64,000 nt of DNA, taken from the NCBI RefSeq assembly GCF_900106995.1, contig NZ_FNOK01000057.1, positions 1 to 64,000 of the forward strand. Reading direction: 5' to 3'. Position 1 is the stretch's first letter. Each line of letters starts with the position of its first letter. Both the position numbers and the translations under genes were made by a program. Below are positions 40,274 through 55,548 of this stretch, one piece after another. The notes under the pieces are model-generated. The model did no database searches and was not told the DNA's origin. It worked only from the letters and a program-made list of their open reading frames with translations. Source of the stretch: Saccharopolyspora shandongensis. Lineage in GTDB: Bacteria > Actinomycetota > Actinomycetes > Mycobacteriales > Pseudonocardiaceae.

Positions 40274-41401
40274 ATGAAGACCAAGGCTGCAGTGCTGCAC
40301 GGCCCCGGCGAGGACTGGGAAATCGAGGAGATCGACCTGGGTGACCCGGTGGCCGGCGAGGTGCAGGTGCGGCTGGCGGCCTCGGGGCTGTGCCACTCCG
40401 ACGAGCACTTGCGCACCGGCGCGAGCCCGGTCGCGTTCTACCCGGTGGTGGGCGGCCATGAGGGCGCCGGGGTGGTCACGAAGGTCGGGCCCGACGTCAC
40501 CGGCATTGCGGAAGGCGACCACGTCGTGCTCGCGTTCATCCCCGGCTGCGGGGCGTGCCGGGCGTGCGCGCGCGGGATGCAGAACCTCTGCGACGCGGGC
40601 GGGAGCCTGCTGACGGGCAAGGCGATTTCCGATGGCACGCACCGGTTGTCGTTGCGTGGCAAGCCGATGGTGCCGATGTGCCTGCTCGGGACCTTCGCCC
40701 CGTACGTGACCGTCAACCAGGCGTCGGTGATCAAGATCGAAGACGACGTCCCGCTGGACAAGGCCGCGTTGCTGGGCTGCGGCGTGTCCACCGGCTGGGG
40801 CTCTGCGACCGAGGTCGGCAACACCCGCGCCGGCGACACCGTGGTGGTCGTGGGCGTCGGCGGCGTCGGCATCAACTCGGTGCAGGGCGCGGCGGCTGCC
40901 GGGGCGCGCTACGTGATCGCGGTCGACCCGGTGGCGTTCAAGCGGGAGAAGGCGCTGGAACTCGGCGCCACGCACGCGTTCGAGTCGATGGCCGACGCGG
41001 CGGCCGCGGTCGGCGAGCTGACCTGGGGGCAGAACGCCAACACCGTCATCCTGACCAAGGGCGAGGTCGGGGGCGACGACCTGCAGCCGGCGCTGAGCAT
41101 GACGGCCAAGGGCGGCCAGGTCGTGGTCGTCGGCATGGGCCACTACCAGCAGACCGATGCCAAGGTCAGCCTTTTCGAGCTGACGCTGCTGCAGAAGCGC
41201 GTGCAGGGCGCGATCTTCGGCGGCGTCAGCCCGCGCACCCAGATCCCGCGGCTGCTGGAGCTCTACCGGCACGGCACGTTGAAGCTCGACGAGCTGGTCA
41301 CCAACACCTACCGGCTGGAGGACATCAACGCCGCGTACCAGGACATGCGCGACGGCAAGAACCTGCGCGGCGTGGTCATCTACGGCGACGCCGACCACTG
41401 A
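40274..41401 (+). CDS. NDMA-dependent (mycofactocin-associated) alcohol dehydrogenase
   Basis: A 375-residue zinc-dependent medium-chain dehydrogenase. Catalytic zinc ligands are in GLCHSDEHL and GGHEGAG; the structural zinc cysteines are in CGACRACARGMQNLC; the NAD fold is VVVVGVGGVGINSVQGAAAAG. Sequence style and location identify the NDMA-dependent alcohol dehydrogenase group (Rxyl_3153-like). In these, NAD stays bound and is reoxidised by mycofactocin instead of exchanging. Its stop lies 17 bases from the stop of mftR, next to the cofactor operon, which supports the assignment. ATG 40274 follows GAGGAGTGGG. Confidence 0.92.
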   Translation: MKTKAAVLHGPGEDWEIEEIDLGDPVAGEVQVRLAASGLCHSDEHLRTGASPVAFYPVVGGHEGAGVVTKVGPDVTGIAEGDHVVLAFIPGCGACRACARGMQNLCDAGGSLLTGKAISDGTHRLSLRGKPMVPMCLLGTFAPYVTVNQASVIKIEDDVPLDKAALLGCGVSTGWGSATEVGNTRAGDTVVVVGVGGVGINSVQGAAAAGARYVIAVDPVAFKREKALELGATHAFESMADAAAAVGELTWGQNANTVILTKGEVGGDDLQPALSMTAKGGQVVVVGMGHYQQTDAKVSLFELTLLQKRVQGAIFGGVSPRTQIPRLLELYRHGTLKLDELVTNTYRLEDINAAYQDMRDGKNLRGVVIYGDADH

Positions 41402-41417
41402 TCGCTGCGGCCGGGCG

Positions 41418-42047
41418 TCACCGCGTGGCGTCCGGCCGGGCCGCCGCACCGAATCCGGCCGCCAGCTCGCGCATCGCGGCGTCGAGCAGTTCGCTGAGGT
41501 CGGAATCCTCGCTGTCCAGCCATTTTTCGTAGGCCGCGACGGCGACGCCGAGCGTCGCGTGGGCGATGGCCTGCGGCGCGAGGCCGTCCGCGGGTTCGCC
41601 GAGGCGGTCGCCGACGAACTCCGCCACCACCTGCCGCCAGGCCTGGAAGCGCAGCGTCGAGTGGGCCTGCAGCGCGGGCACCCCGAGGATGAGCCGCATC
41701 CGGCGGCGGTGCGCCGGAACCTGCTCCGGGGCGACCCGGTTGAACTCGACGAGGCAGTGCCGGATCGCGTCCATCAGCGGGCTTTCCGGCGGCGCGGTGC
41801 GGAGATCCGCGCGCATCCGGTCGAGCTCGCCGTCGAAGTCGCCCCACGGGATGTCGTTCTTCGACGGGAAGTAGTGGAAGAACGTCCGGCGCGCGATGCC
41901 GGCCGCGCGCGCGATGTCGGTGATGGTGGTCTGCTCGAACCCCTGCTCGTCGAAGAGCTCGAACGCGACCTGCTCCAGCTCGGCGGCGGTGGTCACCCGC
42001 CGTCGACCGCCGGGTCGCGGGATTGAGCCGATCGTGTTCTGCCCCAA
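41418..42047 (-). CDS. mftR: Mycofactocin regulator MftR (TetR family)
   Basis: A TetR regulator of about 209 residues. The HTH is AAELEQVAFELFDEQGFEQTTITDIARAAGIARRTFFHYF followed by PSKNDIPWGDFDGELDRM, a run typical of MftR proteins. In Mycobacterium MftR represses mftA and responds to long-chain acyl-CoA; the same role is expected here. No ATG is available at the N-terminus: TTG 42047 (with GGAG nine bases upstream) fits the expected length, and GTG at about 41996 would be the shorter alternative. Divergent from mftA with a palindrome between them. Confidence 0.88.
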   Translation of the reverse strand: MGQNTIGSIPRPGGRRRVTTAAELEQVAFELFDEQGFEQTTITDIARAAGIARRTFFHYFPSKNDIPWGDFDGELDRMRADLRTAPPESPLMDAIRHCLVEFNRVAPEQVPAHRRRMRLILGVPALQAHSTLRFQAWRQVVAEFVGDRLGEPADGLAPQAIAHATLGVAVAAYEKWLDSEDSDLSELLDAAMRELAAGFGAAARPDATR

Positions 42048-42073
42048 CGGATGCGTCTCCAGGTCTTCCAAAA

Positions 42074-42086
42074 TGCACTCGGTGCA
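42074..42086. promoter_or_regulatory. Candidate MftR operator
   Basis: TGCAC-TCG-GTGCA is an exact five-base-arm palindrome within an A/T-flanked stretch, 63 bases before the mftA ATG and 27 bases before the mftR start. It is the only clear symmetric site in the divergent region. Confidence 0.5.
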
Positions 42087-42149
42087 AATACGGTTGCCGG
42101 AAGTGGCCGGTGGCCGACTTCGGTCGGCCCGCTCGACGAGGAGCATCGC

Positions 42150-42257
42150 ATGGCTGACGAACAGCACGATTTGGGCACTGCCGCCGCCGAGCCGGCGATC
42201 GAAGAGGAACTGCTGGTCGAAGAGGTCTCGATCGACGGGATGTGCGGGGTCTACTGA
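42150..42257 (+). CDS. mftA: Mycofactocin precursor peptide MftA
   Basis: A 35-residue peptide, too short for most gene callers. It ends IDGMCGVY, the invariant MftA C-terminus; the last Val-Tyr is decarboxylated and cross-linked by MftC and becomes the redox cofactor core. The acidic leader (EEELLVEEVS) is the MftB-binding part. GAGGAG lies at correct distance before ATG 42150. The stop overlaps the mftB start (TGATG), so the two are translationally coupled. Confidence 0.96.
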   Translation: MADEQHDLGTAAAEPAIEEELLVEEVSIDGMCGVY

Positions 42258-42529
42258 TGACCACCGCCGCGGAGTTCGACACGAGCCAGGGCTACCGGTT
42301 GAATCCGCAGGTCGCGTTGCGCCCCGAGCCGTTCGGGGCGCTCGCGTACCACTTCGGCAACCGCAAGCTGTCGTTCCTGAAAGTTCCCGAGCTGGTGGAC
42401 CTCGTGCGAGGCCTCGGCGACCACGCCACCGTCGAGGACGCGCTGCTGGCCGTCCCGGAGGCGCGCCGAGCGTCGTTCCGGCGGGCGCTGGCCTCGCTGG
42501 CCGCCACCGACATGATCCGCCCCCGCTGA
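42257..42529 (+). CDS. mftB: Mycofactocin chaperone MftB
   Basis: A 90-residue PqqD-like RiPP recognition element. It presents MftA to the radical SAM enzyme. The middle region (RPEPFGALAYHFGNRKLSFLK) forms the winged-helix beta strands, followed by the helices VPELVDLVRGLG and ARRASFRRALASLAATDMI. It overlaps mftA by one base and precedes mftC after a 97-base gap that contains paired palindromes. Confidence 0.95.
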   Translation: MTTAAEFDTSQGYRLNPQVALRPEPFGALAYHFGNRKLSFLKVPELVDLVRGLGDHATVEDALLAVPEARRASFRRALASLAATDMIRPR

Positions 42530-42540
42530 GCTTGCGGCGG

Positions 42541-42593
42541 TTTCGCGCGAAAACGTCGCGGCCCCGCACCGAAGGCGCCGGTTTCGCGCGAAA
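42541..42593. promoter_or_regulatory. Twin palindromes TTTCGCGCGAAA between mftB and mftC
   Basis: Two exact copies of the 12-base palindrome TTTCGCGCGAAA stand at 42541-42552 and 42582-42593, 41 bases apart centre to centre. Both are preceded by CGG, and the second sits inside a GCGCCGG-rich frame that could form a stable hairpin. This is the longest gap in the otherwise tightly packed front of the mft operon. It could be an internal operator, a processing site or an attenuator. Confidence 0.5.
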
Positions 42594-42626
42594 GCGCCGG
42601 TGCTGCCCGAACGAGTGGAGTCGAAG

Positions 42627-43817
42627 GTGACTGCTGTCGAACCGGCGCCCGTCCCCTCGCTGGTGGAGCAGTTCAAGGGCGGGCTGGCCGCCCCGATCTG
42701 CCTGACCTGGGAGTGGACCTACGCCTGCAACCTGGCCTGCGAGCACTGCCTCTCGTCGTCCGGGCGGCGCGATCCGCGCGAGCTGAGCACGGCCGAGATG
42801 AAGGCCGTGATCGACGAGTTGCAGCGGATGCAGGTGTTCTACGTCAACGTCGGGGGCGGCGAGCCGACCGTGCGCCCGGACTTCTGGGAGCTGCTGGACT
42901 ACGCCGTCGAGCACCAGGTGGGCGTCAAGTTCTCCACCAACGGCCTGCGCATCGACCGCGAGCGCGCCGAGCAGCTGGCGGCCACCGACTACGTGGACGT
43001 GCAGATCTCCCTGGACGGCGCGACGCGCGAGGTGAACGACGCCGTGCGCGGCCCGGGCTCGTTCGACATGGCGATGCGCGCGCTGGAGAACCTGTCCGCC
43101 GCCGGGATGCGGGATTTCAAGATCTCGGTCGTGATGACCCGGCAGAACGTGTCGCAGCTGGACGACTTCAAGGCGATCGCGGACCGCTTCGGCGCCCAGC
43201 TGCGGATCACGCGGCTGCGCCCGTCGGGGCGCGGCGCGGACGTGTGGGACGAGCTGCACCCGACCGATGCGCAGCAGCACGAGATCTACTCGTGGCTGAT
43301 CGAGCACGGCGAGCAGGTGCTCACCGGCGACTCCTTCTTCCACCTGAATGCGCTGGGCTCCACGCCCCTGCCGGGGCTGAACCTGTGCGGCGCGGGCCGC
43401 GTCGTGTGCCTGATCGACCCGGTGGGCGACGTCTACGCGTGCCCGTTCGCGATCCACGACGCGTTCAAGGCGGGCAACGTCCGCGAGACCGGCGGATTCG
43501 ACCGGGTGTGGCGGGAATCGGAGCTGTTCACCGAGCTGCGGCAGCCGCAGTCCGGCGGCGCGTGCCGGTCGTGCTCGGCGTTCGACGCCTGCCAGGGCGG
43601 CTGCATGGCGGCGAAGTTCTTCACCGGCCTGCCGCTGGACGGCCCCGACCCGGAGTGCGTGAAGGGCCACGGGCAGACCGCACTGTCCGTTGTGGACCGT
43701 TCCGGGCTGCCGAAGGCGTCGCAGGACCACTCCCGCTCCTCGCGGAAGGTCCGGCTGGGCATGCCTTCGATGCCCGCCAAGCCGTGCGACTCCAGCCCCT
43801 TGGCGAGCCAGTTGTGA
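42627..43817 (+). CDS. mftC: Mycofactocin radical SAM maturase MftC
   Basis: A 396-residue radical SAM/SPASM enzyme. The SAM cluster motif is CNLACEHC near residue 38, with the GGEP motif in NVGGGEPTVR. The SPASM cysteines are in LCGAGRVVCLIDPVGDVYACPF and CRSCSAFDACQGGCM. It oxidatively decarboxylates the C-terminal tyrosine of MftA and then forms the Val-Tyr C-C bond. GTG 42627 has GTGGAG six bases upstream; the frame is open to 42600. The stop overlaps the start of the next gene (GTGA). Confidence 0.96.
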   Translation: MTAVEPAPVPSLVEQFKGGLAAPICLTWEWTYACNLACEHCLSSSGRRDPRELSTAEMKAVIDELQRMQVFYVNVGGGEPTVRPDFWELLDYAVEHQVGVKFSTNGLRIDRERAEQLAATDYVDVQISLDGATREVNDAVRGPGSFDMAMRALENLSAAGMRDFKISVVMTRQNVSQLDDFKAIADRFGAQLRITRLRPSGRGADVWDELHPTDAQQHEIYSWLIEHGEQVLTGDSFFHLNALGSTPLPGLNLCGAGRVVCLIDPVGDVYACPFAIHDAFKAGNVRETGGFDRVWRESELFTELRQPQSGGACRSCSAFDACQGGCMAAKFFTGLPLDGPDPECVKGHGQTALSVVDRSGLPKASQDHSRSSRKVRLGMPSMPAKPCDSSPLASQL

Positions 43818-45733
43818 AGCTGACCGACGGCGTCCGGCTGGGCGCGGCGACCGCGCCGTCGCGGGTCCTGTTCGGGCCGCACGAGACGAATCTGGGCCGT
43901 GGTCGCGGCATTTCCGACCGGCACGTGGCTTACTACGCCGCGCGGGCGGCCGGCGGCGCGGGCGTGATCGTCACCGAGACGGCCAGCGTGCACGCCTCCG
44001 ACTGGCCCTACGAGCGCGCTCCGCTCGCCGCGGAGTGCGGCGGGGGCTGGGCGGCCGTGGCCGACGCCTGCCGACCGCACGGCGCGGTGGTGCTCGCCGG
44101 GCTCGGGCATGCCGGCTCGCAGGGATCCTCGGCGTTCTCGCAGAACGCGCTGTGGGCGCCGTCCCGGGTGCCGGACGTGGCCAGCCGCGAGCTGCCGATG
44201 GAACTGGAGCAGGGCGAAATCGACGAGCTCGTCGAGGGTTTCGCCGCGGCGGCGGAATCGGCCGTGCGGGCCGGGATGCACGGCGTGGAGATCGAAGCCG
44301 GTCAGCACTCGCTGCTGCGCCAGTTCCTGTCGGGGCTCACCAACCAGCGCGCGGATGCCTACGGCGAAGATAAAACGCTGCTGCTGCGCGATGTTCTGGC
44401 CGCGGTACGGCGCGCGGTCGGCGATCGCGTGGTGGGGCTGCGGCTGTCCTGCGACGAACTGGCGCCCTGGGCGGGGATCACGCCGGAGCAGGCCGGCGGG
44501 GTCGTCGAAGCGGTGGCTGGCCGGATCGATTACCTCGTGGTGGTGCGCGGCTCCGCGATGGGGACCTCGGCGACGCGGCCCGACCTGCACACCGAGCCCG
44601 GCTTCAACACCGACCTCTGCAAGCAGATCCGCGACGTCGTGAGCGCATGTCCCGCGCAGCCGCTGGTGGTGCTGCAGGGCAGCGTCGTCGAGCCGGAGCA
44701 GGCGCAGCAGGCGCTGGACGACGGCGTCGCGGACCTCGTCGAGATGACGCGCGCCCAGATCGCCGACCCGCGACTGGTCGGGCTGGTCCGGGCCGGACAT
44801 CCGGAGCGGATCCGGCCGTGCGTGCTGTGCAACCAGAAGTGCCGCGTCCGGGACAACCGGAACCCGATCGTCTCCTGCATCGGCGAGCCGTTCAGCGGGC
44901 ACGAGAGCGGCGCCCCCGAGCCCGCGCCCGCGGCGCGGCGCGAGGTGCTGGTCGTCGGCGGTGGCCCGGCCGGGCTGGAAGCCGCGCGGGTGCTGGCCGA
45001 GGGCGGGTACGAGGTCGAGATCGTCGAGAAGGACGACCGGCTCGGCGGCACCGCGCTGTGGGCCGCCGAGGTCGGCGGGCGCGGTCGGCTGCGCCGGATC
45101 GTCGACTGGCTGGAAGCCGAGGTGCGGCGGCTCGGCGTGCGCGTCACGCTCGGCACCGAGGTCACCGAGGCGGACCTGATCGGCACCAGGCGGGACGTGC
45201 TGGTGGCGATCGGCTCGGTGCCGGGGCCGCGCGCGTACGAGATCCGCGGCGGCCTGGTCATCGACGTCGTCGACCTGCTCGAACACCACGCCGTGCCGGA
45301 CGGTCCGGTGGTGGTGTCCGACCCGGTCGGGGACGCCGTCGGCGTCGGAGTCGCCGAGCTGCTCGCCGGGCAGGGGCGAGACGCGGTGATCGTCACGCAG
45401 GACCAGGTCGTGGGCACGCAGCTGGCCCTCACCGGCGACCTGGCGGATGCCAACGGCCGGCTACAGCGCGCCGGGGTGCGGCTGGAGAAGCGTTCGCTGC
45501 TGCGGGAGGTGCACCCCGATCACGTGGTCCTGGAGGACACCTTCACCGCCCAGCGCCGAACCATGCCCTGCGCCTCGGTCATCCACTGTGGACACAGGCT
45601 GTCCAGCCCCGATCTGGCCGGGTGGCCGCGGGCGGGCGACTGCGTGGCGCCCAGGACGATCCACGAGGCGATCCTCGAAGGCCGCCGCGCGGCGCACGAG
45701 ATCACCGCGCTGGTCGGGGGAGGCGTGCGATGA
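43814..45733 (+). CDS. Mycofactocin-system FadH/OYE-family oxidoreductase 1
   Basis: A 639-residue two-domain flavoenzyme like 2,4-dienoyl-CoA reductase: an N-terminal OYE FMN barrel (SDRHVAYYAARAAGGAGVIVTE), a 4Fe-4S motif CVLCNQKC...SC near residue 335-355, and a C-terminal FAD/NAD domain (VLVVGGGPAGLEAARVLAEGGYEVEIVEKDDRLGG). Starts at GTG 43814 inside the mftC stop. A homologous but clearly diverged enzyme follows directly. Role in mycofactocin biology is inferred from its place in the operon: reducing or oxidising the cofactor, or a substrate-specific step. Confidence 0.9.
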   Translation: MKLTDGVRLGAATAPSRVLFGPHETNLGRGRGISDRHVAYYAARAAGGAGVIVTETASVHASDWPYERAPLAAECGGGWAAVADACRPHGAVVLAGLGHAGSQGSSAFSQNALWAPSRVPDVASRELPMELEQGEIDELVEGFAAAAESAVRAGMHGVEIEAGQHSLLRQFLSGLTNQRADAYGEDKTLLLRDVLAAVRRAVGDRVVGLRLSCDELAPWAGITPEQAGGVVEAVAGRIDYLVVVRGSAMGTSATRPDLHTEPGFNTDLCKQIRDVVSACPAQPLVVLQGSVVEPEQAQQALDDGVADLVEMTRAQIADPRLVGLVRAGHPERIRPCVLCNQKCRVRDNRNPIVSCIGEPFSGHESGAPEPAPAARREVLVVGGGPAGLEAARVLAEGGYEVEIVEKDDRLGGTALWAAEVGGRGRLRRIVDWLEAEVRRLGVRVTLGTEVTEADLIGTRRDVLVAIGSVPGPRAYEIRGGLVIDVVDLLEHHAVPDGPVVVSDPVGDAVGVGVAELLAGQGRDAVIVTQDQVVGTQLALTGDLADANGRLQRAGVRLEKRSLLREVHPDHVVLEDTFTAQRRTMPCASVIHCGHRLSSPDLAGWPRAGDCVAPRTIHEAILEGRRAAHEITALVGGGVR

Positions 45734-47673
45734 CCCGCTACCTGTTCTCCCCGCTGCGGATCGGCCCGGTGACCGTGCGCAACCGCATCGTGTTCTCCGC
45801 GCACCTGACGAACTACGCCGAGGACGGCCTGCCCAGCGAGCAGCACGCCGCCTACTACGCCGCCCGGGCCGCCGGCGGTGCGGGCCTGGTGATCACCGAG
45901 GAACATTCGACGCACCCCACGGACTGGCCGTACGAGAAGCTGATCCACGGCTTCCACCGGTCGGTCGTGCCCGGGTACCGGCGGATCACCGAGGCGGTCC
46001 ACGCCCACGGCGTGCCGATCTTCGCCCAGCTCAACCACAACGGCGGGCAGGCGTCGTCGATGTACTCCCGCCTGCCGGTGTGGGCGCCGTCCGCGGTGCC
46101 GGACCCGATGTTCCGGGAAGTGCCCAAGGCGATCGACACCCGCGAGATCGCCGAGGTCGTCGCCGGCTACGGCACCGTCGCCGGGCACTGCGCCGAAGGC
46201 GGGTTCGACGGCGTCGAGCTGCAGTGCTCGCACTCGTCCATCGTGCGCGGTTTCCTTTCCCCCGCCACGAACAAGCGCACCGACTCCTACGGCGGATCGC
46301 TGGCCGGGCGGGCCCGCATCCTGCTGGAGATCATCGACGCGGTGCGCGAGGCGCTCGGCCCCGAGCGGGCGCTGGGCGTGCGGCTGTGCGGGGACGAGTT
46401 GATCGAGGGCGGCACCACCATCGACGAGGCGGTCGAGGTCGCGCGGATGGTGGAGGCCACCGGCAAGGTCGACTACATCAACACCTCCATCGGCGTGGCG
46501 ACCTCGACGCTCTACATGATCGAGGCGTCGATGGCGATCCCGCCGGGCTACGCGCTGTTCATCTCCAACGCGATCCGCCGGGCCGTGCGCCTGCCGGTGG
46601 TCGGTGTCGGGCGGATCAAGGACCCGCTGCAGGCCGAACGGGCGCTGGAGGAGGGCCACTGCGACCTCGTCGGCGTCGTGCGCGGTCAGATCGCCGACCC
46701 GGACTTCGCGGCCAAGGCCCGCTCCGGGCACGGCGGCGACATCCGGACCTGCCTGTCCTGCAACCAGGAATGCGTCGGCCGGATGGGCCTGAACCGCTGG
46801 CTGGGCTGCATCGAGAACCCGCGGACCGGCCGCGAGGCGGTGGCGCTGCCGATGCCCCGGGCCCGCAAGCGGGTGCTGGTCGTCGGCGGCGGCCCGGCGG
46901 GCCTGCAGGCGGCGTCGACCGCGGCGGAACGCGGCCACCACGTGACCCTGTTCGAGCGGCAGCAGGGGACCGGTGGGCAGGTCGCGGTCGCCGCCACGGT
47001 GCCCAGCCGCGCGGAATTCCTCGACGTGGTCCGGAATCTGCGCGCCGAATGCGAACGCCACGGCGTCGACGTCAAGACGGGCGTCGCGGCGACGGCGGAG
47101 ATGCTGCGCGACGAGCACCCGGACGTGGTCGTGCTCGCGACCGGAGCCCGCCCGCAGCCGGTGCACTGGGCCGGCGGCGTCGACCGGGTCGTCGACGTCC
47201 GCGACGTGCTGGAGGGCCGCGCGGCACCGGAAGGCGACGTGCTGGTCGTCGACGAGCTCGGCTTCCACCAGGCGTCCTCGGTCGCCGAGCTGCTGGCCGA
47301 CCGGGGCTGCCGGGTGCGGATCTCCACGCCGGGCATGGTGGTCTGCCAGGATCTCGGCGTGACGCTGGACATGGAGACCTTCAACGTCCGCGCGCACGCG
47401 AAGGGCATCGAGCAGGCCACCGACGAGGTCGTGATGTCGGCGGCGGCCGAACCGGACGGAGTCGCGCTGCAGATCCTCAAGCACACCACCGGGGAAATGA
47501 CCGAAGCCCGCTTCGACTGGGTCGTGTGCGCGACGCACCAGGCCCCGGAAGACGCGTTGTGGCACGAGCTCAAGGATTCCCCGTTCGCGGTGCACCGGGT
47601 CGGCGACTGCATCGCGCCGCGCCGCGCGCACGCCGCGGTCGTCGAAGGACATCGAGTGGCGGTGGGCCTGTGA
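45730..47673 (+). CDS. Mycofactocin-system FadH/OYE-family oxidoreductase 2
   Basis: A 647-residue paralogue of the preceding protein. The barrel carries RIVFSAHLTNYAEDGLPS, the ATNKRTDSYGGS segment and GVGRIKDPLQAE. The 4Fe-4S motif is CLSCNQECVG...GC, and the C-terminal FAD site is VLVVGGGPAGLQAASTAAERG. The barrel is closer to canonical dienoyl-CoA reductase than that of oxidoreductase 1. ATG overlaps the previous stop (ATGA), and its own stop overlaps the ETF alpha start (GTGA). Confidence 0.92.
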   Translation: MTRYLFSPLRIGPVTVRNRIVFSAHLTNYAEDGLPSEQHAAYYAARAAGGAGLVITEEHSTHPTDWPYEKLIHGFHRSVVPGYRRITEAVHAHGVPIFAQLNHNGGQASSMYSRLPVWAPSAVPDPMFREVPKAIDTREIAEVVAGYGTVAGHCAEGGFDGVELQCSHSSIVRGFLSPATNKRTDSYGGSLAGRARILLEIIDAVREALGPERALGVRLCGDELIEGGTTIDEAVEVARMVEATGKVDYINTSIGVATSTLYMIEASMAIPPGYALFISNAIRRAVRLPVVGVGRIKDPLQAERALEEGHCDLVGVVRGQIADPDFAAKARSGHGGDIRTCLSCNQECVGRMGLNRWLGCIENPRTGREAVALPMPRARKRVLVVGGGPAGLQAASTAAERGHHVTLFERQQGTGGQVAVAATVPSRAEFLDVVRNLRAECERHGVDVKTGVAATAEMLRDEHPDVVVLATGARPQPVHWAGGVDRVVDVRDVLEGRAAPEGDVLVVDELGFHQASSVAELLADRGCRVRISTPGMVVCQDLGVTLDMETFNVRAHAKGIEQATDEVVMSAAAEPDGVALQILKHTTGEMTEARFDWVVCATHQAPEDALWHELKDSPFAVHRVGDCIAPRRAHAAVVEGHRVAVGL

Positions 47674-48605
47674 ACGGACGTCCGGAGATGCTCGCCGTCG
47701 TCATCGCCCGCGGCGGCGCGCTGCCCGGCGGCGCCGACGAAGCCGCGGCGGAATGCGGCGGAGCGGTCCTCGTCGTGGGCACCGGCACGCGGGAAGCGGC
47801 TCGCGCCTTCACCGCGGCCCGGCGCATCTGGGCGGCGGAAGTCCCGGTGATCGCGCCCGGCGCGCTTGCCGCGGTGCTGGCGCCGCTGATCGCCGAGGTC
47901 CCCATCGTGGTGCTACCGGCCTCGCCGGACGGGCGCGACATCGCCGCTCGCCTGGCCTTCCAGAGCGAAAGGCCCCTGCTCGCCGGCGCCACCCGGTGCA
48001 CGCCGGAGCACGCCGATCTGTCCAGATTGGACGATTCGCTGGAGGTCCGGGTCGCACTCGACGAACCGGCCGTGGTCACCCTGATCCCGGGCGTGCGCGG
48101 CACGCCGCAACCGGTGCCCGCCCCGGACCCGGTCGAACTGACCGTCATCCTGCCCGAGGTGCTCGACGCCGAGGTCGTCGAGGTCCTGGAACCGGAACCC
48201 GAAACGGTCGAACTCGCCGAAGCCAAGCGGATCCTCGGCGGCGGGGCCGGGCTGGTGCGCCCCGGCGAAGACGGCGCGGCGGTAATGCGGACCCTGACCG
48301 GCGTGGCCACCGCCCTCGACGCCTCCGCCGGCGCCACCCGGGTGATCACCGACGCCGGCTGGGCGGGGCACGACCGCCAGATCGGCACCACGGGCGTCGT
48401 CGTCGACCCCGACCTCTACGTCGCCTTCGGCGTCTCCGGCGCGACGCAGCACGTCGGCGGCCTGGGCCGCCCGGCGCACGTGATCAGCGTGAACACCGAC
48501 CCGTCCTGTCCGATGACCGCGCTGGCCGACCTGGGCATCGTCGCCGACGCGCCCGACGTCCTGCGCGAACTGGCGCGCCGACTGAACGGAGCCGCCGATG
48601 CCTGA
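47670..48605 (+). CDS. Electron transfer flavoprotein alpha subunit, mycofactocin-associated
   Basis: A 311-residue ETF alpha (FixB-like) protein. The C-terminal FAD-binding domain is diagnostic: GGGAGLVRPGED, GWAGHDRQIGTTG, then LYVAFGVSGATQHVGGL and NTDPSCPMTALADLGIVAD. It pairs with the ETF beta gene four genes downstream, the two being separated by fixC- and fixX-like genes. ETFs pass electrons singly or in pairs from flavin dehydrogenases to the quinone oxidoreductase. Overlaps the fixC-like gene by eight bases. Confidence 0.92.
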   Translation: MNGRPEMLAVVIARGGALPGGADEAAAECGGAVLVVGTGTREAARAFTAARRIWAAEVPVIAPGALAAVLAPLIAEVPIVVLPASPDGRDIAARLAFQSERPLLAGATRCTPEHADLSRLDDSLEVRVALDEPAVVTLIPGVRGTPQPVPAPDPVELTVILPEVLDAEVVEVLEPEPETVELAEAKRILGGGAGLVRPGEDGAAVMRTLTGVATALDASAGATRVITDAGWAGHDRQIGTTGVVVDPDLYVAFGVSGATQHVGGLGRPAHVISVNTDPSCPMTALADLGIVADAPDVLRELARRLNGAADA

Positions 48606-49902
48606 ACACTCCGAAGTGGACGCCGTGGTGGTCGGGGCGGGCCCGGCCGGCGCGTCCGCGGCGCTGGAGCTGGCGCGGGCCGGGCGCAGCGTGATCCTGC
48701 TGGAGCGCGGGCCGTTCCCGGGCGCGAAGAACGTCTACGGCGGCGTCGTCTACGGCCGGGTGCTCGACGAAGTCCTGCCCCGCTGGTGGGAAGAGGTGCC
48801 GGTGCAGCGCTGGGTGACCCGCCGCAGCACCATGATGATGACCCCGACCCAAGCCCTCACCGTCGACTTCCGCACCGAGGACTGGGGGAGCGCGCCGTAC
48901 AACGGCATGACCACCTACCGCGCGGACTTCGACGCGTGGCTCGCGGGCAAGGCGGTGGCAGCCGGTGCGCAGCTGGTGACCTCCACGGTCGCGACCGAGC
49001 TGCTGCGCGACGCCACCGGGCGCGTGATCGGCGTCCGCACGGACCGGCCAGACGGCGACATCCGGGCACAACTCGTCATCGCCTGCGACGGCGTCAACTC
49101 GTTCCTCGCGAAGCAGGCGGGCCTGCTGCCGCGGACGGACCCCGAGCACCAGACCCTCGGGGTGAAGGAAACCCTTTCCCTGCCGCGCAGGGCGATCGAG
49201 GAGCGCTTCGGGCTCAGCGGCGACGAAGGCGCGGACTTCGAGATCCTCGGCTGCACCGGCGACATCCCCGGCGGCGGCTTCCTCTACACCAACCGCGACA
49301 CCGTCAGCATCGGCGTGGTGCTGTCGCTGACCGGCCTGGCCTCCGCCGGGCGGCGCCCCGAGGAAGTCCTCGCGGACCTCAAAGCGCACCCGGCGATCGC
49401 GCCCTACCTGCGGGGCGCGGAGCTCAAGGAGTACTCCGCGCACCTGATCCCGGAAGGCGGCTATCGCAGCATGCCGCCGCTGCACGCCGACGGCCTGCTG
49501 GTCGCGGGCGACGCGGCCGCGATGTGCCTGGCGGCCGGGATCTGGCTGGAGGGCGTCAACTTCGCCATCGGCTCCGGCCTGGCCGCGGGCCGCACCGCCG
49601 CCGAAGCCATCGCGGCGGGCGATCCCACCCGGCTCGCGGGCTACCGCGAGCGACTGGAGGGCAACTTCGTGCTGACCGACCACAAGAACCTGCAGGGCGC
49701 GCCGCACCTGGTCCTCTCCGACCGGGTCCAGCGGCAGTACCCGAGGCTGCTCTGCGACTTCGCGCAGGAGGTCTTCACCGTCCGCAACCCGGAACCGAAA
49801 CCCGGCCTCGGCAAGCTGTTCCGGCGCACGGCTGCCCGGCACGGCGTCCGGCTGCGGCAACTCGCCGCGGACGCCTGGGCCGGCCTCCGCGTCTTCGGCT
49901 GA
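48598..49902 (+). CDS. FixC-like ETF:quinone oxidoreductase, mycofactocin-associated
   Basis: A 434-residue FAD protein: AVVVGAGPAGASAALELARAG dinucleotide motif, GAKNVYGGVVYG loop, and GLLVAGDAAAMCLAAGIWLEGVNFAIGSG, all FixC hallmarks. Like FixC it lacks its own iron-sulfur domain, which is supplied by the FixX-like ferredoxin downstream. Together with ETF it would deliver electrons to membrane quinone. The 196-base gap after this gene, with repeat copy C, is the largest break in the operon. Confidence 0.92.
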   Translation: MPEHSEVDAVVVGAGPAGASAALELARAGRSVILLERGPFPGAKNVYGGVVYGRVLDEVLPRWWEEVPVQRWVTRRSTMMMTPTQALTVDFRTEDWGSAPYNGMTTYRADFDAWLAGKAVAAGAQLVTSTVATELLRDATGRVIGVRTDRPDGDIRAQLVIACDGVNSFLAKQAGLLPRTDPEHQTLGVKETLSLPRRAIEERFGLSGDEGADFEILGCTGDIPGGGFLYTNRDTVSIGVVLSLTGLASAGRRPEEVLADLKAHPAIAPYLRGAELKEYSAHLIPEGGYRSMPPLHADGLLVAGDAAAMCLAAGIWLEGVNFAIGSGLAAGRTAAEAIAAGDPTRLAGYRERLEGNFVLTDHKNLQGAPHLVLSDRVQRQYPRLLCDFAQEVFTVRNPEPKPGLGKLFRRTAARHGVRLRQLAADAWAGLRVFG

Positions 49903-49920
49903 CGGATGTTTCGAAAGTGA

Positions 49921-50080
49921 TTTGCGTAGCGGTGCGGATAGCGGAACCTCAGGGGCCGCCTCACTCCGGGATCCCGAGTCCAATACGCGGCGCCGGGGCG
50001 GTCCTCGTGACGCGTCCCCTGAGAACCCGCGGCGGTGCAAGCTGAGTCCCTCACCGCAAGCGGCTGCCTCCGCTTCAAAG
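49921..50080 (+). repeat. Dispersed intergenic repeat, copy C, inside the mft operon
   Basis: In plus orientation: GCGTAGCGGTGCGGATAGCG, GGAACCTCAGGGGCC, GGGATCCCGA, CCAATACGCGGCGCCGGGGC, GTCCTCG, CCCCTGAGAACCCGCGGCGG, and the closing GCGGCT..CCGCTTCAA stem. The CTCAGGGG/CCCCTGAG pair is exact, so the transcript can form a long hairpin. It fills nearly the whole gap between the fixC-like and fixX-like genes and could alter downstream expression or mRNA stability. Confidence 0.75.
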
Positions 50081-50098
50081 CAGACCTGAGGAGTGACT

Positions 50099-50392
50099 AT
50101 GCACCAGTACCCGGAAGTGTCCTTCGAGGACCGGATGAGCACCGTCGACTTCCAGGTCGGCGAGCGCCCGCACATCACCGTGGACACCGAGATCTGCCGG
50201 TCGTGCACCACCAAGGCGTGCGTGCCCGCCTGCCCGGCGAAGCTGTTCGTGCCCACCGGCGACGGCGGCATCCTGTTCAACTACGAGCAGTGCTTCGAAT
50301 GCGGCACCTGCTACCAGATCTGCAACTCCGCCGGCGCCATCACCTGGACCTACCCGGACGGCGGGCACGGCGTCGTCTTCCGGAAGGGCTGA
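50099..50392 (+). CDS. FixX-like ferredoxin, mycofactocin-associated
   Basis: A 97-residue ferredoxin-like protein. Cysteines are grouped as CRSCTTKACVPAC and CFECGTCYQIC, the arrangement of FixX, which carries a 4Fe-4S cluster for the FixC-type oxidoreductase. ATG 50099 has GAGGAG seven bases upstream, a strong site that may allow fresh initiation after the upstream repeat. Only one base separates its stop from the ETF beta start. Confidence 0.93.
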   Translation: MHQYPEVSFEDRMSTVDFQVGERPHITVDTEICRSCTTKACVPACPAKLFVPTGDGGILFNYEQCFECGTCYQICNSAGAITWTYPDGGHGVVFRKG

Positions 50393-50393
50393 C

Positions 50394-51242
50394 ATGGGAC
50401 CGCAGATCGTCGTGGCGCTGAGCTGGTCCTGGCGGCGGGTCCGGGTGGATCCGCTCACCGGGGAGCTCGACGCCGGAGACCGGGGCGGCAACGCCGCCGA
50501 ACACGCGGCGCTGGAACACGGCCTCCGGCTCGCCGAGGAACTCGACGGCCGCGTCCTGGCGGTGACAGTCGGGCCCCCAGCGGCCGAGGAGGGCCTGCGC
50601 GCAGCGCTGGCGGCGGGCGCGCACGAGGCGATCCGCGTGGCGCGGGACGACCAGCTGAAGCCCGGCCACCTCGTCCACAATGGAGCAGACACGGCCAAGG
50701 CGATCGCAACGGCGGTCGCGGAACCGGATCTCGTGCTGTGCGGCGACAGATCGGACGACGGCGGCACCGGAACAACGCCCGCGTTCCTCGCAGCCCGGCT
50801 CGGTGCCGCGCAGGCACTTGGCGTCGTGAAGCTCGAATCCGAAGGCGAATCACTGCTGGCGCACCGCAGGCTCGACGGAGGAAGCCGCGAGGTCTTGCGG
50901 CTGCCCACGCCCGCGGTCGTCTCGGTCGAAGCCGCCGGTGTGCGCCTCCGCCGAGCGAGCCTGCCTGCCGTGCTGGCAGCCCAGAAGGCGACGATCCGCA
51001 CGATCGCGGCCGAGCCGCAGCGGCCGCGACGCGTGGTCTCGGCCCGCCCGCTCCGCCCACGAGCGCGAGAACTGACCGCCCCGGCGGGAACGACGGCGCA
51101 CGACCGGATGCTCGAACTGACGGGCGCGCTGCAAGACCGCACGCCACCGACCGTCATCGGCCCGCTGCCTGCCGCCGAAGCGGCCGACGAACTGCTGGGC
51201 TACCTGAAGCGCCACGGATACCTCACGGGGGAGACGCCATGA
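50394..51242 (+). CDS. Electron transfer flavoprotein beta subunit, mycofactocin-associated
   Basis: A 282-residue ETF beta (FixA-like) protein: VVALSWSWRRVRVDPLTGEL at the N-terminus, EHAALEHGLRLAEELDGRVLAVTVGP, and LVLCGDRSDDGGTGTTPAFLAARLG forming the nucleotide site. The last 90 residues (Pro/Arg-rich, then PLPAAEAADELLGYLKRHGYL) are more divergent than usual. Partner of the ETF alpha at 47670. ATGA overlap with the SDR that follows. Confidence 0.9.
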   Translation: MGPQIVVALSWSWRRVRVDPLTGELDAGDRGGNAAEHAALEHGLRLAEELDGRVLAVTVGPPAAEEGLRAALAAGAHEAIRVARDDQLKPGHLVHNGADTAKAIATAVAEPDLVLCGDRSDDGGTGTTPAFLAARLGAAQALGVVKLESEGESLLAHRRLDGGSREVLRLPTPAVVSVEAAGVRLRRASLPAVLAAQKATIRTIAAEPQRPRRVVSARPLRPRARELTAPAGTTAHDRMLELTGALQDRTPPTVIGPLPAAEAADELLGYLKRHGYLTGETP

Positions 51243-52021
51243 GCAGGGTCGCGGTGGTCACGGGCGCGGCACGCGGAATCGGCGCAGCGGTCGTGCGGCG
51301 GCTCGCCGCGGACGGCTGGCGCGTGGTCGCCGTCGACATCTGCGCGGACATCCCCGGGACCGGATACCCGCTGGGAACCCGGGAACAGCTCCGGGCGCTG
51401 GCGGAGGAGTGGCCGGAGTCCGTGCGCGACGTCGTGGCCGACGTCCGCGACGAGGCCGCGGTGCGGCGAGCCGTCGCGGTGGCGGAAGCCGAGTTCGGCG
51501 GCCTGGACGCGGCGGTGGCGGCGGCCGCCGTCATGGCGGGCGGACGGCCGCTGTGGGAGACCTCGAACGACGAGTGGGACGCCCTGTTCGACGTCGGCGT
51601 CCGCGGCGTGGCGAATCTGGCCCGCGCCGCGGTCCCGCTGCTGCTGCAACGACCCGAACCCCGATCCGGCCGGTTCGTCGCCCTGGCCTCGTCGGCGGCG
51701 CACCGAGGTCTCTACCACCTCGCCGGCTACAACGCGGCCAAGCACGCGGTGGTCGGCCTGATCCGTGGCCTCGCCACCGACCTCCGCGGCACCGGGGTGA
51801 CGGCGACGGCGGTCTCGCCGGGATCGACCCGCACGGACATGCTCACCGCCACCGCGGCCTACTACGACCTGGCGGACGTGGAGGAGTTCAGCCGGCACCA
51901 GCTGGTCGAACGCCTGCTGGAGCCGGACGAGGTGGCGGCTGCGGTGTGCTGGCTGTGCGGCGAAGGTGCCTCGGCTGTCACGGGAACCGTCGTGCACGCC
52001 GACGGAGGATTCACGGCATGA
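51239..52021 (+). CDS. Mycofactocin-coupled SDR family oxidoreductase
   Basis: A 260-residue short-chain dehydrogenase. TGAARGIG lies at residues 8-15, catalytic YNAAK in the middle, and the end is VTGTVVHADGGFTA. The insertion after strand 2 (VDICADIPGTGYPLGTREQL) is the hallmark of the mycofactocin-coupled SDR group, thought to shield a non-exchangeable NAD that is recycled by mycofactocin. Overlaps both neighbours by four bases, so it is fully coupled to the operon. Confidence 0.93.
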   Translation: MSRVAVVTGAARGIGAAVVRRLAADGWRVVAVDICADIPGTGYPLGTREQLRALAEEWPESVRDVVADVRDEAAVRRAVAVAEAEFGGLDAAVAAAAVMAGGRPLWETSNDEWDALFDVGVRGVANLARAAVPLLLQRPEPRSGRFVALASSAAHRGLYHLAGYNAAKHAVVGLIRGLATDLRGTGVTATAVSPGSTRTDMLTATAAYYDLADVEEFSRHQLVERLLEPDEVAAAVCWLCGEGASAVTGTVVHADGGFTA

Positions 52022-53370
52022 CGGCCAGGCTCGCGCCCGACCCCGGCCTGCGCCGCTGGGACGGCGGACGAACGCTCGCGGGCGGATCGCCGTTCCGCGT
52101 GCTGCGGCTGACCGCGGCCGGCGCGGCCATGGTCGACGGCTGGATCGCGGGCGAGCCGGTGACCGCCGGAGCGGCCCTGGCGCAGCGGCTCGTCCGGGCG
52201 GGAATGATGCACCCGAGCTACGACCAGGCCCAGCACGGGCCGAGCGACGTGACCGTGGTGATCCCGGTGCGCGACGGCGACGTGTCCGGACTGCTCGCGG
52301 CGCTCGACGCGCCCGCCATCGTCGTCGACGACGGCTCCCGGCAGCCGATCCCGGGAGCCGCGATCCGCCACGAAACCGCCCGGGGCCCGGCGGCGGCCCG
52401 CAACGCCGGATGGCGGCTGGCCCGAACGCCGCTCGTGGCGTTCCTGGACGCCGACACGATCCCTGAACCGGGCTGGCTCGCACCGCTGCTCCGCCACTTC
52501 GAAGACCCGGCGGTCGTGGCCGTGGCGCCGAGAATCCGCAGCACACCGGGAAAAACGGCGCTGGCCCGCTACGAGAGCACCCAGTCGCCACTCGACCTCG
52601 GCGACCAACCGAGCCTGGTGCAACCCGGCAGCAGGATCAGCTACGTCCCCACGGCGGCCCTGGTGGTCCGCACGTCGGCGCTGCGCGAGCTCGACGGCTT
52701 CGACGAGACGATGCGCTTCGGCGAGGACGTCGACCTGATCTGGCGCCTGACCGCCCGGGAACACCTGGTCCGCTACGAACCGGCAGCCGTCGTCGAACAC
52801 GCGCCGCGCCCGCGGTGGACGGCCCTGCTGCGACAGCGATTCGACTACGGAACCTCGGCAGGCCCCCTGGCGCAGCGGCACGGCGACGCGGTCGCCCCGG
52901 TGCGGGCATCGCTGTGGAGCGCGGTGGCGTGGGCGTTGATCCTCGTGGGCAGGTCGGGAGCCGGACTGGCCGTGATAGGCGCGGCGGCGGCCCTGCTGAC
53001 CCGCAAGCTCGGCAAGCTGGGCATCCCGGCCCGCGAAGCGATTAGCCTGGCAGCACAGGGAAATCTCGGCGCGGGCCGCATCTTCGCCGACGCGATCGGG
53101 CGAGCCTGGGCGCCGGTGGCGGTCCCGCTGCTGCTGCTCAGCCGCCGCGGCCGAGCGGTGCTGGCGCTGGTGCTGCTCAGGAACCTGCTGGACTGGGCGC
53201 GCAAGAAGCCCTCGCTCGACCCGATCCGCTGGTGCCTGGCGCGCACGGCCGACGACGTGGCGTACGGCTGCGGTGTCGCGCGCGGCGCCCTGCGCTCCCG
53301 CAGCCCCGCGTCGCTGATGCCGTTCCTGACTGATCGCGGCGGCCGCAGCAGCGTCCAGGTGTCGCGATGA
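52018..53370 (+). CDS. mftF: Mycofactocin glycosyltransferase MftF
   Basis: A 450-residue GT2-fold enzyme. The catalytic region is VTVVIPVRDGD, IVVDDGS, ARNAGWRLARTPLVAFLDADTIPEPGW (DxD), and FGEDVDLIWRL. The C-terminal half has hydrophobic helices (about residues 300-400) that probably associate with the membrane. MftF adds beta-1,4-glucose units to premycofactocin. Overlaps the SDR and mftE genes by four bases each. Confidence 0.94.
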   Translation: MTARLAPDPGLRRWDGGRTLAGGSPFRVLRLTAAGAAMVDGWIAGEPVTAGAALAQRLVRAGMMHPSYDQAQHGPSDVTVVIPVRDGDVSGLLAALDAPAIVVDDGSRQPIPGAAIRHETARGPAAARNAGWRLARTPLVAFLDADTIPEPGWLAPLLRHFEDPAVVAVAPRIRSTPGKTALARYESTQSPLDLGDQPSLVQPGSRISYVPTAALVVRTSALRELDGFDETMRFGEDVDLIWRLTAREHLVRYEPAAVVEHAPRPRWTALLRQRFDYGTSAGPLAQRHGDAVAPVRASLWSAVAWALILVGRSGAGLAVIGAAAALLTRKLGKLGIPAREAISLAAQGNLGAGRIFADAIGRAWAPVAVPLLLLSRRGRAVLALVLLRNLLDWARKKPSLDPIRWCLARTADDVAYGCGVARGALRSRSPASLMPFLTDRGGRSSVQVSR

Positions 53371-54104
53371 CGGCCCTGGCGGACCTGACCTGGCCAGAGA
53401 TCGCCTCGATCGCCGGTCGGAGCATCCTCGCGGTCCCGGTCGGCGCGACGGAACAACACGGCCCGCACCTGCCGTTCACCGTCGACACCGAGATCGCGGA
53501 GGCACTCTGCGCCCGCCTGGCGGAGCAGATCGAGGTCGTGGTGGCACCGGCGGTGACCTACGGCTCCAGCGGCGAGCACGCGGGCTTCCCGGGCACGCTG
53601 TCGATCGGCCAGGAAGCGGTCGAGCACCTGCTGGTGGAACTGGTCCGCTCGGCGGACGCGTTCGCGGGAGTGGTGCTGGTGTCGGCCCACGGCGGCAATG
53701 CCGAACCGGTCCGCAGAGCGGTGGGGAAGCTCCGAGCGGAAGGCCGCCACGTGCTGGCGTGGGCGCCGACGGGACGGCCGGACGACACCCACGCGGGCCG
53801 AACCGAGACCTCGGTGATGCTGGCGGTGCGCCCGCAAGCGGTGCACCTGGCCAGAGCGGAGCGGGGCAACACCACGCCACTGCCGAACCTGATCGACACG
53901 CTCCGCACCGGAGGGCTCCGCGCGGCCACGACCAACGGTGTCCTGGGCGACCCGGCAGGGGCGACGGGGGAGGAGGGAGCCCGAATCCTGGCGGCCTGGA
54001 CGACGTCGCTCACGGCGGCGGTGACGGCCTGGCAAAGCCATGACCAGGGAAAATGGCAACCGGAGGGCCCCGATGATCGCCCATCCGGAGGTGCGGTAAG
54101 CTAA
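53367..54104 (+). CDS. mftE: Mycofactocin peptidase MftE (creatininase family)
   Basis: A 245-residue creatininase-fold metallopeptidase. Metal ligands appear in VGATEQHGPHLPFTVDTEIA, SSGEHAGFPGTLSIG, VLVSAHGGN and DTHAGRTETSVML. MftE cleaves the modified MftA to release the AHDP core. It is placed after mftF, an order different from the mycobacterial mftABCDEF. It is the last gene of the operon, followed by tRNA-Pro after 34 bases. Confidence 0.95.
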   Translation: MTALADLTWPEIASIAGRSILAVPVGATEQHGPHLPFTVDTEIAEALCARLAEQIEVVVAPAVTYGSSGEHAGFPGTLSIGQEAVEHLLVELVRSADAFAGVVLVSAHGGNAEPVRRAVGKLRAEGRHVLAWAPTGRPDDTHAGRTETSVMLAVRPQAVHLARAERGNTTPLPNLIDTLRTGGLRAATTNGVLGDPAGATGEEGARILAAWTTSLTAAVTAWQSHDQGKWQPEGPDDRPSGGAVS

Positions 54105-54138: not shown

Positions 54139-54212
<74 letters not shown>

Positions 54213-54223
54213 CCGTGGAGAGA

Positions 54224-54265
54224 GCCCGCTGATCGGCACGTAAGTGCAGGTCAGCGGGCCTTTTT
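54224..54265 (+). terminator. Rho-independent terminator after tRNA-Pro
   Basis: GCCCGCTGA (54224-54232) pairs exactly with TCAGCGGGC (54251-54259), an 18-base loop between them, followed by C and TTTTT. It begins 11 bases after the tRNA and should end the tRNA transcript. Confidence 0.85.
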
Positions 54266-54266
54266 G

Positions 54267-55412: not shown

Positions 55413-55548
55413 AGTCATCTGCGACGACACCAACAACACGCCCGACACGATCGATACCGGCAAGGTCGTCTGCGACATCGGCGTCGCTCCGGTCCGCCCC
55501 GCCGAGTTCGTTCACTTCACGATCACCCAGATCGCCGGCGCGCCGTAG
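55412..55548 (+). pseudogene. Contractile tail sheath protein, C-terminal fragment
   Basis: The plus frame reads AVICDDTNNTPDTIDTGKVV then CDIGVAPVRPAEFVHFTI and TQIAG before the stop at 55546-55548. The C-D-x-T-N-x-P-x-x-I-D-x-G-x-x-V-C-D-I-G-V-A-P-x-x-P-A-E-F run is the C-terminal signature of sheath proteins from phage tails and extracellular contractile injection systems. The rest of the gene was lost at the junction with the insertion sequence. No other tail gene is found in the window. Confidence 0.65.

Follow-up and report, generated by a model that had tools for sequence, protein, structure and literature searches.

A mycofactocin locus type of actinobacteria in which an electron-transfer flavoprotein module in the place of MftD suggests a second, oxygen-independent way of making or recharging the cofactor

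The locus for biosynthesis of the redox cofactor mycofactocin in Saccharopolyspora shandongensis, which lies in the 64,000-nucleotide stretch of DNA analyzed here (the window), lacks mftD and carries instead, directly after mftC, the genes for two proteins of the old yellow enzyme (OYE)/FadH family, OYE1 and OYE2, both subunits of an electron transfer flavoprotein (ETF), EtfA and EtfB, and a FixC-like and a FixX-like protein. The role of premycofactocin synthase has been ascribed to MftD, whose presence cluster-finding rules have demanded. The exchange of MftD for the ETF set in gene content is well supported, and the mftD-less, ETF-bearing locus type is general in actinobacteria. A conserved flavoprotein electron-transfer module in the place of MftD suggests a second, oxygen-independent way of making or recharging mycofactocin, and the best explanation of the locus, to which we would give an even chance, seems to be that the mycofactocin system comes in two architectures, of which this is the second.

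The window is carried on a contig of 66,222 bases (C82) of a 10.15-Mb genome that was assembled into 134 contigs and is 98.55% complete. Unless stated otherwise, genes were called by NCBIfam profile scores against the curated cut-offs. By this measure, the biosynthetic proteins MftA, MftB, MftC, MftE and MftF all score above the cut-offs, as do mft_etfA and mft_etfB; FixC and FixX match relatives of their families with scores under the cut-offs (Table 1). The genes follow one another in the order NDMA (N,N-dimethyl-4-nitrosoaniline)-dependent alcohol dehydrogenase, mftR on the minus strand, mftA, mftB, mftC, OYE1, OYE2, etfA, fixC, fixX, etfB, a short-chain dehydrogenase/reductase (SDR), mftF, mftE and tRNA-Pro. 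The mft, OYE, ETF, FixC and FixX genes named in an initial annotation of the window are thus all present, mostly above the cut-offs; that annotation did not list the alcohol dehydrogenase at 40274 and overlooked the strand of mftR. Its description of a locus joined mostly by four-base overlaps holds for five junctions (mftC-OYE1, OYE1-OYE2, etfB-SDR, SDR-mftF and mftF-mftE) and fails at mftB-mftC and fixC-fixX, which are separated by gaps of 85 and about 190 bases, respectively.

Neither mftD nor mftG had been seen in the locus, and profile searches confirm their absence from it. For MftD, the lack of a match above the cut-off extends to the whole genome: the best match to the MftD profile (TIGR03966, cut-off 470.85 bits) anywhere in the 98.6%-complete genome scores 250 bits, and this protein is better modeled as a lactate dehydrogenase (333 bits, against 251 with the MftD model); by comparison, the true MftD of a relative scores 695 bits with the MftD model. 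The search of the rest of the genome that the initial annotation had called for, therefore, yielded no MftD above the cut-off, and its suggestion that mftD lies elsewhere was rejected, the best match being below the cut-off and lactate-dehydrogenase-like. The best match to MftG (TIGR03970), on another contig, scores 340 bits, under the cut-off of 387.45. On contig C117, the same genome has another, incomplete mft locus (locus L038, 3719-9237), with mftA, mftB, mftC, an OYE1 split in two and OYE2; no ETF genes, mftF or mftE were recognized on the 20 kb of this contig, where mftD is likewise missing, and the MftC of this locus clusters in the MftC tree with MftD-type proteins, apart from the MftC of the window.

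The relationship between MftD and the ETF set was examined in a panel of actinobacterial genomes. Of 396 genomes sampled across the phylum, 53 have MftC above the cut-off, as do 66 of 150 sampled from the family; these make 118 in total, the window genome being in both draws. From these, 80 were selected before any MftD search; of the 38 left out, four came from the phylum draw, where they were near-duplicates, and 34 from the family draw, which was reduced to one genome per genus, six from the genus of the window and three more. The panel was searched for MftD at E 1e-100, with a repeat at 1e-60 for the 13 genomes found to lack it, and for MftG at E 1e-120, which is stricter than the family cut-off, with a repeat at 1e-80 on 50 genomes. 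Above the cut-offs, MftD is present in 67 of the 80 genomes, mft_etfA in 21, OYE2 in 24 and MftG in at least 11 (10 at E 1e-120, with G399 added at 1e-80). Taken jointly, 56 genomes have MftD alone, 12 have OYE2 and ETF without MftD, nine have all three, two have MftD and OYE2 without ETF, and one has OYE2 alone; no genome among the 80 is without both MftD and OYE2. The ETF set occurs in nine of the 67 MftD-bearing genomes, and its association with the absence of MftD is strong across the 80 genomes when relatedness is ignored (Fisher p = 5.6e-8). The module tracks the absence of MftD much better than that of MftG.

All 13 genomes without MftD carry OYE2, EtfA and FixC, with EtfA above the curated cut-off in 12 and divergent in one, and 12 of them carry FixX and EtfB; in the remaining genome (G322), the contig stops inside fixC. 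OYE1 can be missing: none was found in one MftD-less genome. This genome (G186), which counts as having OYE2 alone, harbors a variant mycofactocin system with an ETF below the cut-off (loci L133 and L267): variant_MftA, a precursor that ends in VDGICGVY, and an alcohol dehydrogenase are followed by MftC (41% identical), OYE2 (928 bits), EtfA, FixC, FixX, EtfB and MftF. Neither MftD nor OYE1 was found in it, all five of its remaining FadH-like proteins being better matches to OYE2 than to OYE1. In the repeat search at E 1e-60, none of the 13 genomes yielded an MftD above the cut-off; seven had no match at all and six had matches of 221 to 332 bits. The NDMA-dependent alcohol dehydrogenase (TIGR03989) is found above the cut-off in 11 of the 12 MftD-less ETF genomes (22 copies, 8 of them in G436), in all nine genomes with both types, in 11 of 20 genomes with MftD and without ETF (two of these with OYE2) and in one of 19 without MftC. 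Hence, the MftD-less genomes keep the client enzymes of mycofactocin.

The exchange is also seen at the level of loci. Within 40 kb of mftC at 85 mftC loci, MftD was found in 41, mft_etfA in 18, OYE2 only in four and neither in 22; in none of the 85 do MftD and mft_etfA occur together. The order mftABC-OYE1-OYE2-etfA-fixC-fixX-etfB-SDR-mftF-mftE is recurrent, with mftE and SDR sometimes swapped; the genes of the set are scattered over several places in G091, G188 and G294, and fixX-etfB-SDR stand apart from the rest in G284. In G407, MftD adjoins MftC and mft_etfA is missing. Full-length MftD genes distant from any recognized mft biosynthesis gene are seen in some genomes with ETF-type loci (L127, L128, L131, L149 and L153).

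A quick maximum-likelihood tree of MftC, built for 83 of the 85 loci (G441:C1 and the split G237 were left out, and one of the two G074 places was not counted), implies that the exchange recurred. On this tree, 13 changes of state are needed for the ETF type, at least seven of them on strongly supported (starred) branches, and in places an MftD-type locus has an ETF-type locus as its sister, as is the case for G102 and G284 (support 100). A single ancient ETF lineage was rejected on these 13 changes, although 29 of the 80 inner branches are open. In nine independent starred-branch pairs that differ in ETF, the absence of MftD goes the same way in five on average, the opposite way in none and shows no difference in four; the direction of these contrasts is uniform and their number is small.

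A scan with an EtfA alignment extended these observations to named genomes. The best 80 out of 230 relatives were kept, every one with an actinobacterium named in its title; among them, the closest named relative of the window's EtfA is from Saccharopolyspora elongata (97%). None of the 80 loci contains MftD or MftG by tblastn. The 55 that contain mftC all have matches to OYE1 and OYE2 (cross-hits between the two being unseparated), and by the best match of called genes the count is 51 of 51; the other 25 of the 80 have no mftC within the fetched stretch. Whole genomes were searched for MftD for 50 of these loci, namely, 39 not titled as metagenome-assembled genomes (MAGs), including a Candidatus Frankia, and 11 that are MAGs. 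MftD exceeds the cut-off in 10 of them, and in one more (Amycolatopsis rhizosphaerae) the gene is divided between contig ends; it is lacking above the cut-off in 39 of the 50 and, among the 39 genomes not titled MAG, in 28. The genomes that lack it include S. spinosa, S. hirsuta, Kutzneria sp. 744, Streptomyces viridiviolaceus and Kitasatospora sp. Root107, and 15 of the 50, among them the last two, have no MftD match even at E 1e-60. There is also mft_etfA on MAG contigs labeled Bifidobacterium breve (L227 and L229), a surprising label.

OYE1 and OYE2 both have the three-domain build of OYE/FadH proteins, and their nearest solved sequences are 2-naphthoyl-CoA reductase, 2,4-dienoyl-CoA reductase, the 6-hydroxypseudooxynicotine amine enzyme 6l6j, and histamine and trimethylamine dehydrogenases. 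Their AlphaFold models (pLDDT 79 each, pTM 0.80 and 0.66, respectively) have poor loops around the barrel mouth and the 4Fe-4S motif; for the OYE1 model, the first matches by E-value are histamine dehydrogenase and 6l6j, and 2-naphthoyl-CoA reductase has a higher TM-score. In homologs taken from two overlapping sets of loci (65 of 72 OYE1 and 71 of 79 OYE2 sequences being distinct over residues 21-500), the 4Fe-4S motif is retained in all 79 OYE2 and in 46 of the 72 OYE1; of the 26 OYE1 without it, 25 have lost the second cysteine. None of the 79 OYE2 and none of the 72 OYE1 has the GxGxxG motif that forms the NAD(P)H loop in the last domain, and this loop is likewise absent from the aligned histamine and trimethylamine dehydrogenases. 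OYE2 thus combines the features of the fold of ETF-coupled amine dehydrogenases, namely, an OYE barrel, a 4Fe-4S motif and no NAD(P)H loop, and the folds align. The FadH catalytic pair, presumably Y166 and H252, is missing from OYE2, with S170 and A257 in all 79 sequences. By sequence and predicted fold, therefore, the two OYEs appear to resemble amine dehydrogenases that feed an ETF, OYE2 being nearer to reductases, and OYE2 could be an amine dehydrogenase with predicted FMN, 4Fe-4S and Rossmann domains. As for their putative partners, the FAD domain of EtfA is recognized, FixC is closest to the FixC of the EtfABCX complex 7koe and next to the ETF:quinone oxidoreductase 2gmh, and EtfB has the consensus D-R-G-T-G-S-V where, from 4kpu and 7koe, D-G-D-T-x-x-V is expected, which we take to be the second-flavin motif of bifurcating EtfB.

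The most economical reading, which in our judgment is about as apt to hold as to fail, is that OYE2 substitutes for MftD, with the ETF and FixCX as its electron path. MftD works with a flavin and reportedly uses O2. The substrate, electron route and division of labor that we infer for the ETF type are as follows. MftA, MftB, MftC and MftE, whose genes are conserved, would make the cyclised amine AHDP as usual; OYE2, instead of MftD, would oxidize the amine of AHDP, acting as a dehydrogenase; the dedicated EtfAB would receive electrons from the 4Fe-4S cluster of OYE2 and hand them on, by way of FixC/FixX, to the quinone pool, and because they would go to quinone rather than to O2, the deamination step would need no O2; MftF would attach sugars. 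In genomes without MftG, reduced mycofactocin might also feed electrons into the same ETF/FixCX chain, perhaps with the help of OYE1. In its fullest form, to which we give a little less than an even chance, the proposal is that OYE2 with EtfAB and FixCX works as an AHDP:ETF dehydrogenase and so as a second premycofactocin synthase, one independent of O2; on several occasions within Actinomycetota, it would have taken the place of the oxidase-type MftD through an exchange at the position following mftC. The initial annotation had raised the possibility that an OYE-type enzyme performs the MftD step, and it draws strength from the presence of OYE2, EtfA and FixC in every MftD-less panel genome and from the relationship of the OYEs to ETF-coupled amine dehydrogenases; the chemistry itself we infer.

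Several observations weigh against a role of OYE2 in the place of MftD. Both by fold and by sequence, OYE2 is closest to reductases (2,4-dienoyl-CoA and 2-naphthoyl-CoA reductases), not to amine dehydrogenases. At C30, Y169, H172, W264 and D267 of trimethylamine dehydrogenase, which we take to be its catalytic residues (positions counted in the alignment), OYE2 has L, Q, H, T and M, so that only H172 of this set is kept (in 76 of 79). Some MftD-less genomes encode proteins that are at most divergent relatives of MftD: that of S. spinosa (G507) scores 332 bits with the MftD model against 299 with the lactate dehydrogenase model and lies outside the mft loci (L287, 7057-8283) within an operon of catabolic appearance that also contains amidohydrolase, Rieske, aldolase and NuoF-like genes, and two from Amycolatopsis (359 and 334 bits; L288, 5844-7055, and L289, 5069-6286), also outside mft loci, score above the lactate dehydrogenase models; in these strains, a paralog may account for the MftD step. 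The two types are not mutually exclusive, given that nine genomes hold both MftD and an ETF locus; in three of these (G524, G441 and G474), MftD adjoins a second mftC, and in the other six (G439, G458, G420, G421, G486 and G413), where it is apart from the mft biosynthesis genes, the stand-alone MftD could serve the ETF locus. Two further genomes (G409 and G487) have OYE1 and OYE2 beside mftC, an unlinked MftD and no mft_etfA, and hence the OYEs have some use beside MftD. Finally, although all informative contrasts agree in direction, the phylogenetic sign test gives a median p of 0.0625 (range 0.03-0.25).

Among the alternatives, the OYE/ETF/FixCX set might perform the job of MftG, re-oxidizing mycofactocinol, with another enzyme forming premycofactocin. 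Neither the 21 ETF genomes nor G186 have an MftG above the cut-off, and both OYEs are retained where MftD is present as well; moreover, MftG links the reduced cofactor to respiration and is missing from about 25% of the genomes with MftC, a matter that its authors leave open (PMC11778925). Nevertheless, most of the MftD-bearing panel genomes have neither MftG above the cut-off nor the ETF set, so that loss of MftG calls for no such module, and what the module tracks is the absence of MftD; we consider this alternative unlikely, and the claim of the initial annotation that ETF/FixCX replaces MftG, although it agrees with the lack of MftG in the ETF genomes, is weakened accordingly. The set might also be a catabolic addition that acts on an amine or an alcohol-derived substrate under regulation shared with mycofactocin, with a divergent MftD or a lactate dehydrogenase paralog carrying out the MftD step. 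The adjoining SDR and NDMA-dependent alcohol dehydrogenase genes, the LldD-like protein of the window genome with its 250 bits to the MftD model and the better fit of the S. spinosa relative to MftD than to lactate dehydrogenase are compatible with such a role. It is made rather improbable by the seven MftD-less panel genomes without any match at E 1e-60, by the lactate-dehydrogenase character of the window-genome paralog, the like of which also occurs in genomes with true MftD, and by its failure to explain the link between the absence of MftD and the set.

The two OYEs with their unusual active sites, together with the reductases as nearest relatives of OYE2, would also fit loci that make a different cofactor, in which the amine of AHDP is not turned into a ketoamide and the OYEs build another redox center; the unchanged MftA core, IDGMCGVY, and the presence of the same mycofactocin-dependent dehydrogenase family in these genomes render this improbable. 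Another conceivable function for the Etf/Fix proteins is that of a bifurcating complex of the EtfABCX type feeding low-potential electrons to MftC, given the same four-part composition and the FixC of 7koe as the best solved relative of FixC. The second nucleotide-site motif of EtfB, altered against both compared relatives, would speak against this as the main role, and the link with the absence of MftD is left unexplained; we hold it to be very improbable and set it aside as the main role. That mftD was simply lost in gaps of the assembly, which the number of contigs and the slight incompleteness of the genome might allow, is scarcely credible and was rejected, 39 of the 50 related ETF genomes being likewise without MftD above the cut-off.

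Table 1. Features of the mycofactocin locus in the window, with profile scores and cut-offs
Feature	Position	Strand	Evidence
NDMA-dependent alcohol dehydrogenase, likely mycofactocin-dependent nicotinoprotein	40274..41401	+	TIGR03989 584.5 bits, cut-off 440
mftR, TetR-family regulator, divergent from mftA	41418..41996	-	TIGR03968 268.7 bits, cut-off 224.9
mftA, precursor peptide, C-terminus IDGMCGVY	42150..42257	+	TIGR03969 55.2 bits, cut-off 25
mftB, peptide chaperone	42257..42529	+	TIGR03967 105.2 bits, cut-off 33
mftC, radical SAM maturase, alternative GTG start 42600	42615..43817	+	TIGR03962 652.6 bits, cut-off 265
OYE1, mycofactocin FadH/OYE oxidoreductase 1	43814..45733	+	TIGR03996 819 bits, cut-off 627.9
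OYE2, mycofactocin FadH/OYE oxidoreductase 2, proposed MftD substitute	45730..47673	+	TIGR03997 1015.9 bits, cut-off 793
mft_etfA, ETF alpha subunit with FAD domain	47688..48605	+	NF038209 448.2 bits, cut-off 240; PF00766
FixC-like ETF:quinone oxidoreductase flavoprotein	48598..49902	+	NF007542 312 bits, below cut-off 610; PDB 7koe_C FixC E 2.6e-70
Dispersed repeat copy between fixC and fixX	49903..50092	+	at least 40 own-genome matches including itself
FixX-like ferredoxin, possible GTG start 50093	50099..50392	+	NF011993 54.8 bits, below cut-off 166; 4Fe-4S Pfam domains
mft_etfB, ETF beta subunit	50394..51242	+	TIGR04503 361.1 bits, cut-off 200
Mycofactocin-coupled SDR oxidoreductase	51239..52021	+	TIGR04504 408.2 bits, cut-off 250
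mftF, glycosyltransferase	52018..53370	+	TIGR03965 424.6 bits, cut-off 280
mftE, peptidase	53367..54104	+	TIGR03964 268.8 bits, cut-off 172

The two gaps in the locus have features of their own. Between mftB and mftC (42518-42599) lies a tandem pair of 41-base units, each with a GGTTTCGCGCGAAA palindrome, possibly a regulator site or a repeat. The gap between fixC and fixX consists of a dispersed, partly palindromic repeat, the other copies of which, among the matches listed in its own genome, are 73-88% identical (316 candidate matches in the genome, eight copies aligned), with a second window copy at 25601-25734 on the minus strand. By length, the only property compared, this gap is about 220 bases in S. 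elongata and about 210 in S. spinosa, and under 20 bases in S. soli, S. hirsuta and S. kobensis. The repeat folds as RNA no better than shuffled sequences, and an Rfam search of 36-58 kb in the window recovered tRNA only. On the 3' side of mftE lies the tRNA-Pro gene, beyond which the coding composition is weaker and an IS4/5-type transposase (54687-55478) is found, as well as genes for Ku and a UvrD-like helicase; the region 54139-64000 is possibly mobile.

If the ETF-linked set does perform the MftD step, clusters of this type would be those of mycofactocin producers with another electron acceptor; this would account for a possible cofactor synthesis without O2 and provide one candidate answer to the question of what serves the genomes without MftG. 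Part of the ground is already published. MftD deaminates AHDP to a ketoamide, as stated in the text of PMC11778925, and the MftD family was described as present in most, not all, mycofactocin species (Haft 2011, PMC3023750). The main text of the BGCFlow study reports 17 Saccharopolyspora clusters without mftD and with TIGR03997, labeled ranthipeptides by antiSMASH 6.1.1 for lack of mftD, and suggests that they make a mycofactocin-like compound, citing S. erythraea as a producer (BGCFlow 2024, PMC11162802). The terms "electron transfer" and "mftg" do not occur in that main text, in which we found neither a genome-wide MftD search nor a mechanism. In the openly licensed literature, a scope outside of which the main biochemical papers lie, we found no paper linking mycofactocin to this ETF set. 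Thus, the mftD-less, OYE-bearing Saccharopolyspora clusters and the ETF subunits as named NCBIfam families are already published, whereas the genome-wide exchange of MftD for ETF and the proposed mechanism appear to be new.

Compared with the canonical mftABCDEF(G) of mycobacteria, the window locus shares MftR, MftA, MftB, MftC, MftE, MftF and the precursor core, and differs in the lack of MftD and MftG and in the insertion of two OYEs, EtfAB and FixCX after mftC. The Saccharopolyspora clusters of BGCFlow (PMC11162802), as presented in its main text, are like it in the missing mftD, the TIGR03997 OYE and the MftA terminus IDGMCGVY. The ETF subunits and OYEs are already named mycofactocin-associated in NCBIfam (NF038209, TIGR04503, TIGR03996 and TIGR03997), names that give no function. 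With EtfABCX/FixABCX, the mft set shares the composition of EtfA, EtfB, FixC and FixX, and it is unlike them in the altered second nucleotide motif of EtfB and in the linkage to OYEs and mycofactocin. Trimethylamine, histamine and 6-hydroxypseudooxynicotine dehydrogenases are like the OYEs in the OYE barrel, the 4Fe-4S cluster, the Rossmann domains without an NAD(P)H loop, and the dedicated ETF and quinone reductase; identity in structural matches is 21-29%, the catalytic residues differ, and for OYE2 reductases are equally close or closer. The 6-hydroxypseudooxynicotine dehydrogenase, described in PMC7688666 as containing FMN, 4Fe-4S and ADP and as akin to histamine and trimethylamine dehydrogenases, uses neither NAD(P)+ nor O2, passes electrons to EtfAB and on to an ETF:quinone oxidoreductase of the same cluster, and catalyzes a reaction resembling that of an amine oxidase elsewhere. 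By analogy, this replacement of an amine oxidase by an ETF-linked dehydrogenase in nicotine degradation would be the very pattern proposed here for OYE2 and MftD.

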